64,000 nucleotides of DNA, from positions 1,410,001 to 1,474,000 of the forward strand of contig NC_011027.1 in NCBI RefSeq assembly GCF_000020505.1, read 5' to 3'. Positions 47,469 through 49,333 of this stretch are shown here, piece after piece. The number at the start of each line of letters is the position of its first letter. The stretch's first letter is position 1. The notes under the pieces were generated by a model that was given only the letters and a program-made list of their open reading frames with translations, had not been told where the DNA came from and ran no database searches. Source of the stretch: Chlorobaculum parvum NCIB 8327. GTDB taxonomy: Bacteria > Bacteroidota > Chlorobiia > Chlorobiales > Chlorobiaceae. A program made the position numbers and the translations under genes.

Positions 47469-49333
47469 TCAGTAAACCAGCTCCCCGCCGAACTCCTTGA
47501 TCAGATACCTGACCACCTCGTTGGATTCGGACAGCTCCTGGAACATGGTGAACACGCTTTTCTCCCGGGTGCAGGCGTCACGGGCAGCATCGTAACGAAC
47601 CGAGACTTTCAGCGGCAGCTTGTAAAAGTCGGCCATTTCGCGCGCGAGCAGATCGGCATCATGCTGCAACTCTTCGTAGGAGAATTTCCGGCAGCAGCCA
47701 AGTTCGACCAGCCCATCAGGGCTGCACGCCATCAGATCAGAGGCGTGGAGGTGGGAAACCATCACCTGCAACCCTTTGGCCGAGAGATGTTCCAGAAAAC
47801 GTCCCCACTCCATGCGCAACTGTTCGAGTACGGCCACCGGCGCCCCTCCAGTCGGTGCGGATGCGGCTCCTCCCGCAACAGCCCGGGCCTTGGCCGGAAT
47901 GCGTTGGTCGGCGTTGCTGCCAAACTTCGAGAAAGCCTGTTTCCAGGAGCCGAGATCGATCTTTCCTGCCGGTTTGGAGGCCGGAGCTTCGGATGAAAAA
48001 GCCCTTGATGACGGCGGCGGAGATGGCGGCGCCGGAGGGGGTGGTGGCGGTACCGAAGGCATGTTGGCGGAAGCGGCAGGCGGCGGCACGGCCACTGGTC
48101 GTTGTGATTTTCTGGCTGGTTTCGGAGAAGGTTGGGCAGCTTGCGGAACTTGAGGTGAACCTACAGGCTCAGAATCGGCTTTTTTTTTTCATCCGCCGTT
48201 GTGGTTCCCTGCCCCAAAGCGATGAGCTTGAGCAGCGCGAGTTCGAAGCGGAACTGATGTTCGGCATAGAATTTCAGCTCACGCTGCGTCTGCATGAGCA
48301 GATCGGTCATAGCCATGATCACCTCGGGCGTCAGCTTCAGCGCGTCGCGCTCGTAACGCTCCTTGACCGGTTCGGGCCGTTCGATCAGGCGGCTGGAGCG
48401 CAGATTGTGAATGACAAGGAAGTTGCGGAAATGCTCGATCAGCTTTTCGAGAAAATCCTGCTCGTCGTAACCGTTGCGGTTGACCATGCCGGCCACGTCG
48501 AGCATGGCGGCAGCGTCTCCGGAAACGATGGCGTCAGTCACCATGAAAAAGTGCTCGTCGTCGATGTAGCTCAGCAGGTCGGAGACCTTATCGTAGCGGA
48601 TCGCCCGCTCCCCTTCACTGTCGATGGCAAAGGCTATTACCTGGTCGAGAATGCTCTGGGCGTCGCGCATCGAGCCCTGCGCCTTGCGCGCGATGAGCTG
48701 CAATGCATCATCATCCGCGCTAATTCCCTCGGCATCGCAGATGAACTGAAGCTGGCGCTGAATCTCCGAAATCGGGATACGCTTGAAGTTGAAGCGCTGG
48801 CATCGCGAGGCGATCGTGGCCGGAATCTTGTGCAGCTCGGTGGTCGCGAAAATGAAGATCGCATGCGGCGGCGGCTCTTCGAGCGTCTTGAGAAAAGCGT
48901 TGAACGCCGCCGTCGAGAGCATGTGCACCTCGTCGATGATGTAGACGCGATAGCGTCCTTTCTGCGGGCCGTAGCGCACGTTCTCGCGAAGCAGGCGGAT
49001 GTCGTCCACGCTGTTGTTCGAAGCCGCATCAAACTCGGAAATATTCAGGCTCGCTCCCGCGTCGAAGTCGCGGCAGCTCTCGCACTCACCGCACGGCTCG
49101 GTGACCTCTTTGAGGTACTTCGGGTCCTCGATCATGCGCTGGCAGTTCACCGCTTTGGCGAACACGCGCGCCGCCGTGGTCTTGCCCACGCCGCGAAGGC
49201 CGGAAAAGATGTAGCCGTGGCCGACCCGCCCCATTCTGAGGGAGTTCTGGATCGTGCCGGTGATATGCTCCTGCGCGGTTATATCGGCAAATCGTGAAGG
49301 TCTGTATTTTCGTGCTATGACCTGATAGCTCAT
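47469..49333 (-). CDS. dnaX: DNA polymerase III tau subunit, needs frameshift at 48180-48189
   Basis: The reading frame from 49333 (clamp-loader ATPase) and a second open frame that ends at 47469 make one protein of about 621 residues if one extra A is read, that is a -1 shift, at the A10 run. The second part has a Pro/Ser-rich linker ([31 protein letters not shown]) and then a folded domain ending GGELVY, which matches tau domains IV-V that bind DnaB and the polymerase. Neither part of the downstream frame has its own plausible start. I treat this as programmed, not as a mutation (see findings). Confidence 0.8.
48156..48189 (-). promoter_or_regulatory. dnaX slippery A10 run with downstream hairpin
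   Basis: On the minus strand: an AGGGAA word (48205-48210), 15 bases, A10 (48180-48189), an 8-base spacer, then a 6-base stem TGAGCC/GGTTCA (one G-T pair) with TGTA loop (48156-48171). This is the layout of a -1 recoding site or of transcriptional slippage. Confidence 0.7.
48161..49333 (-). CDS. dnaX: DNA polymerase III gamma form (in-frame product of dnaX)
   Basis: 390 residues in the unshifted frame, ending PILSL soon after the A10 run. It has all clamp-loader parts: Walker [13 protein letters not shown], the zinc module ([13 protein letters not shown]), Walker B/DEVH in [13 protein letters not shown] motif in IASRCQRF, and domain III up to about residue 365. This matches the short gamma protein of other bacteria. 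It overlaps the stop of the YihY gene by four bases (49330-49333). Confidence 0.9.

Follow-up and report, generated by a model that had tools for sequence, protein, structure and literature searches.

Programmed recoding in dnaX of Chlorobaculum parvum: probable RNA-polymerase slippage on a conserved A run with the default product inverted

Described dnaX systems and the C. parvum junction

Transcriptional slippage on a run of nine As (A9) has been shown experimentally for dnaX of Thermus thermophilus (Larsen 2000, as described in PMC1088944 and PMC5009743). A 2016 review notes that the Thermus gene has nearby stops in both other frames and that the presence of two Lys tRNAs may be the reason why Thermus slips at transcription; the same review puts C. 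phaeobacteroides forward as a possible case of ribosomal shifting (PMC5009743). Antonov et al. 2013 (PMC3711429) reported a new type of dnaX organization whose tau product depends on recoding. Their set comprised 17 genes from 12 genera, nine with ten As, and Chlorobi were among the named members; 10 Chlorobi species were surveyed, and transcriptional realignment or slippage was suggested for these two-ORF genes. Two Chlorobium species were listed there with A8 and A7, runs that are short for slippage. For recoding of dnaX in Chlorobaculum or Bacteroidota, literature searches returned no publication other than Antonov 2013 and this review.

The window, a stretch of 64,000 nucleotides, belongs to the genome of C. 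parvum NCIB 8327 (a single contig of 2,289,249 bases) and carries dnaX with its ATG start codon at 49333 on the minus strand (Table 1). In the gamma-type product of the 0-frame, the ATPase, the lid and domain III are followed by EKKKPILSL and the stop. This 390-aa product scored 432 bits against TIGR02397 and matched NF011516, a 397-position model, above the cut-off. At the junction the 0-frame reads GAT GAA AAA AAA AAG CCG ATT CTG AGC CTG TAG. The run of ten As (A10) is one of five runs of at least ten A/T in the 2.29-Mb genome and the only one located deep inside a gene. An in-frame stop after the run had been noticed in an earlier, sequence-only reading, which placed it at a distance of 18 nt; the stop is present, but the distance is 16 nt. 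The same reading correctly recognized that the tau tail is encoded in the -1 frame, although this frame stays open for 236 codons plus the stop and not for 237. With the tail in the -1 frame and the 0-frame closed after the run, tau indeed needs a slip, as had been proposed. The 236-residue product matched NF011515, a gamma/tau model of 620 positions, over model positions 399-620 with an E value of 4e-80. Because the tail matches NF011515 and the short product matches NF011516, both the long and the short forms of dnaX are already included in the NCBI models. On the + strand, a 480-aa open frame (47855-49297) runs antisense to dnaX across the run, which appears there as T10; this frame looks like a mirror of the high-G+C codon bias and not like a gene.

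Table 1. Features of the dnaX locus of C. parvum NCIB 8327 (positions in the window).
Feature	Position	Strand	Basis
dnaX 0-frame ORF, gamma-type, 390 aa	48161..49333	-	Pfam and TIGR02397/NF011516 matches
AGGGAA, Shine-Dalgarno-like word	48205..48210	-	present; AGGGA at the equivalent place in 3/88 Chlorobia genes
A10 slippery run	48180..48189	-	direct reading; A9-A11 in 88/88 Chlorobia dnaX with a readable junction
+1-frame stop TGA, closes the third frame	48169..48171	-	
0-frame stop TAG, closes gamma	48161..48163	-	
Stem TGAGCC / loop TGTA / stem GGTTCA, 6 bp, 8 nt after the run	48156..48171	-	
-1-frame extension, 236 codons and stop: Pro-rich linker and tau C-terminal domain	47469..48179	-	NF011515 match; conservation in 33 lineages
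tau C-terminal domain, 140 residues, predicted KH-like fold	47472..47891	-	alignment, model pLDDT 77, fold search

The C. parvum junction shares with that of T. thermophilus the long A run (ten As, where the Thermus type calls for at least nine), the close stops in both non-tau frames (16 and 8 nt after the run) and the two Lys tRNAs. The default product is inverted: in Thermus one uninterrupted ORF encodes tau without a shift and gamma arises by slippage, whereas in C. parvum gamma is unshifted. Slippage is moreover an experimental result in Thermus, while for C. parvum we infer it from comparison. With E. coli dnaX the gene has in common the in-frame heptamer A_AAA_AAG, the -1 direction and two products per gene. 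It differs from E. coli in the reversed roles of the frames, in a run of ten As instead of six As and a G, in having neither a conserved Shine-Dalgarno (SD) word nor a conserved stem, and in its tRNAs, since the C. parvum genome encodes both tRNA-Lys(TTT) and tRNA-Lys(CTT) and the E. coli type has a single tRNA-Lys for AAA and AAG. From the two-ORF genes of Antonov et al. 2013 it shows no difference in kind, with its 0-frame stop soon after the site, tau in the -1 frame and a poly-A run that is mostly A10 in that set, and it is probably one of the 17 genes listed there. This kind of dnaX has thus been known since 2013. The present analysis adds the frame flips around a constant run and the evidence for phase independence; frame flips, a closed third frame and a Bacteroidota-wide run are not reported in the text of PMC3711429.

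That the dnaX site is one of programmed recoding, of whichever kind, appears practically certain. As its main mechanism we propose RNA-polymerase slippage of the T. thermophilus type with an inverted default product, to which a probability of about 0.75 is given; ribosomal -1 shifting may contribute. RNA polymerase would slip on A10 and produce a mixed mRNA pool. Transcripts with ten As (or 10+3n) would give gamma, ending at the stop 16 nt later, and those with eleven (or 8, 14 and so on) would fuse the N-terminal part with the -1 frame into a tau of about 621 aa (385 + 236). Those with nine or twelve As would meet the +1-frame stop 8 nt on and give another gamma-like product. A single gene would thereby supply both clamp-loader forms. 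We infer that slippage takes place, with one-A insertion as its dominant event, and that gamma and tau are each produced in useful amounts; the dominance of one-A insertion is suggested because tau was never found in the +1 frame.

A constant run and a changing tau frame in Chlorobia

A search of 98 Chlorobia genomes gave 88 dnaX genes whose junction could be read, and these were compared. The junction run was A10 in 79 of them, A9 in eight and A11 in one, and a run of seven or eight As was found at none of the 88 junctions. In the first 1000 nt of these genes, A runs reach a length of seven at most. The presence of nine to eleven As at the junction in 88/88 genes bears out the programmed recoding site that had been claimed for C. 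parvum from its sequence. It had also been suggested to look for conservation of the A run and of the hairpin in other Chlorobi; the run was kept in all 88 genes, but the hairpin was not conserved. RNA-polymerase slippage is favoured by these lengths, because nine to eleven As are retained throughout although 7 nt would suffice for a ribosomal heptamer.

The tau frame was -1 in 73 of the 88 genes (gamma unshifted) and 0 in 15 (tau unshifted), and it was +1 in none. The product order that had been described as inverted relative to E. coli therefore holds for C. parvum, where gamma is unshifted, but not as a fixed trait, 15/88 Chlorobia genes being tau-first. A tree was built from the N-terminal coding part of 87 dnaX genes. 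On this quick tree with many weak inner branches, parsimony, which gives minimum counts only, required at least 11 changes of the tau frame and 6 of the run length. Within Chlorobiaceae the tau frame changed at least eight times and the run length once, the single MAG rows L045, L073 and L080 having been left out of these counts as possible assembly errors. Such repeated flipping of the frame around a run that changed length once is a further reason to favour slippage.

Some of the flips originated from indels located 3' of the run (Chlorobaculum), some from indels 5' of it (L022, L036/L054, L065), and one from the run itself, which has nine As in L049 instead of the ten of L063. Among these close Chlorobaculum relatives (L049 versus L053 and L063), a difference of one A alone reverses the default product. 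Flips were also seen among single-contig genomes, with G000 and G015 being short-first and G001 and G019 tau-first. The last of these, of 2,154,946 bp, carries the L053 gene, which resembles that of C. parvum in genus, in an A10 run at the equivalent place and in a homologous tau tail, but differs from it in that tau is unshifted and stops in the remaining two frames follow 3 and 11 nt past the run.

Two explanations at the DNA level were weighed against these data. In the first, the run length would vary within the population and cells would switch between gamma-only and tau-only states. Homopolymers can vary by replication slippage and L049 is one A off its close relatives, but A10 was found in 79/88 species and one length change stands against eight frame changes within Chlorobiaceae. 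Tau is, moreover, expected to be necessary in every replicating cell, and phase variation of this kind is very improbable. In the second, which is given the same slight chance, the gene would be decayed or misread, the true run being A11 or A8 and dnaX one ordinary ORF. Homopolymers are error-prone, and the single MAG rows L045, L073 and L080 may be such errors; however, the short-first order with A9 or A10 was found in 73/88 genes, several single-contig genomes among them, tau-first genes likewise have their two other frames closed at the run, and the tau domain is conserved in its frame. The comparison of 88 genes refutes sequencing error as the cause of the frame break for the Chlorobia group.

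The third (+1) frame was closed within 29 nt of the run in 86/88 Chlorobia genes. Among 31 hand-chosen lineages, 30 were closed in the third frame within this distance, against an expectation of 9.9 derived from that frame in more downstream parts of these genes; owing to the kinship of the lineages any P value can be only approximate, but the direction is clear. A closed +1 frame is not required by ribosomal shifting, because a -1 shift needs only one alternative frame closed. RNA-polymerase slippage is favoured by the closed third frame, by the two Lys tRNAs, as in Thermus, and by the lack of a conserved hairpin or SD word.

It is an old dispute whether two clamp-loader forms in a fixed proportion are necessary for bacteria. 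The retention of ten As through repeated flips suggests that selection acts on the mixture and not on one of the two products by itself. Closely related species that differ by a flip offer ready-made natural experiments on the slip ratio. Many dnaX genes of Chlorobia and Bacteroidota are probably annotated as gamma only or as tau only.

Ribosomal shifting, putative stimulators and re-initiation

The sequence-only reading had left room for both mechanisms; the comparison favours RNA-polymerase slippage, and a ribosomal share may contribute. Ribosomal frameshifting by -1 at A_AAA_AAG would resemble the E. coli case with the roles reversed (gamma unshifted and tau shifted) and could act alongside slippage. 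As the explanation of the site it is considered unlikely, although several observations speak for it. The heptamer of E. coli is kept in frame in 77/88 Chlorobia genes, C. parvum included, which counts against slippage. The required direction is always -1, and tau was found only in the 0 or the -1 frame, so that slippage must be biased to the insertion of one A, whereas a -1 ribosomal shift explains this directly. It is because of these two features that a ribosomal share may still be present. The 2016 review considers such shifting for C. phaeobacteroides (PMC5009743), and C. parvum dnaX does contain an SD-like word and a stem.

The AGGGAA word and the 6-base stem with its TGTA loop at a spacing of 8 nt had been pointed out earlier as stimulators. 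Both elements exist, but a stimulatory role did not hold up: neither an upstream SD-like stimulator nor a downstream stem-loop was conserved among the 88 Chlorobia genes. The AGGGA word ends 16 nt 5' of the run, and AGGGAA is probably without a role. A stem of at least 6 bp arose by chance in 17% of shuffles and was present in 23% of other 40-nt windows in C. parvum dnaX. The folding z-score of the C. parvum hairpin region was +0.67, and over the 88 genes downstream folding was no better than in shuffles (mean z = +0.11). At most 3 bp could form at the place of the hairpin in L057, the closest relative (96% identity), and the 6-bp stem of C. parvum is probably due to chance.

Ribosomal shifting is further disfavoured by the presence of tRNA-Lys(CTT), which should hold AAG firmly, and by the closed +1 frame, unnecessary for such a mechanism. 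A run of nine to eleven As is moreover kept in all codon phases, also where A_AAA_AAG is missing. This indifference to codon phase is natural for polymerase slippage and hard to square with a heptamer read by the ribosome.

A separate tau-tail protein, made by re-initiation after the gamma stop, has a negligible probability. The -1 frame does contain a GTG-started ORF of 208 aa, but the first tau-frame start in C. parvum lies 68 nt past the gamma stop. The survey of starts and SD words in the 73 short-first genes led to the rejection of this explanation, as in only 6/73 does the tau frame have a start at most 25 nt from the gamma stop, and none of the six has an SD word.

The tau domain and the wider distribution of the run

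In an alignment of 33 lineages, the tau tail was conserved at the protein level in the open frame, whichever this was. PF20964 (DnaX_C) was matched by 3/33 of the tau-tail members with a best E value of 7e-4, and searches of PDB sequences with the tail returned nothing useful. A fold search with the predicted tau domain retrieved KH-like folds and folds resembling DnaA domain I, with 4tps_D at Z 9.7, rmsd 2.3 and 82 aligned residues and 2wp0_D at Z 8.1. The E. coli tau structure 5fku_E (Z 6.4, rmsd 5.8, 92 aligned) was one among many rows at Z 6-7. The C-terminal domain of tau is tentatively predicted from the model to be KH-like, with DnaA domain I and DciA as the nearest solved folds.

Outside Chlorobia, a run of A9-A11 was detected at the junction in 47/62 Bacteroidota loci and in 2/3 Ignavibacteriota loci from named genomes. 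A second set comprised 70 loci from the GTDB phylum of the window, picked for family spread and with short-ORF cases deliberately included; 42 of them had such a run. Taken together, the two Bacteroidota sets (L097-L175, L184-L253) gave 89/132 loci with A9-A11, a figure that represents no random sample of the phylum and in which species may overlap between sets. The core parts of the genes sampled here, 150 kb in all, contain no A run of nine or longer.

The 89 runs were distributed over the three codon phases as 34/32/23, and only 30/89 end where a next G would make A_AAA_AAG. The tau frame was 0 in 72 of these loci and -1 in 17, and it was never +1. Stops in the two non-tau frames are reached within 40 nt in 83/89 loci, including 22 of the 25 with a G+C content of at least 50%, and the run-bearing loci reach a G+C content of about 60%.

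Slippage on A9-A11 is somewhat favoured as an old and widespread property of dnaX in Chlorobia and Bacteroidota. Under such a regime the tau frame would hardly matter, the frames being filled at comparable levels; indels would flip the default product, selection would keep about ten As and the other frames closed, and one-A insertion would dominate, which would account for the absence of tau from the +1 frame.

A similar arrangement was noticed in L149, a dnaX gene of Gemmata (Planctomycetota) with 64% G+C, in which an A9 run is followed by stops closing both non-tau frames 20 and 27 nt after it. This gene is possibly an independent slippery dnaX outside Bacteroidota.
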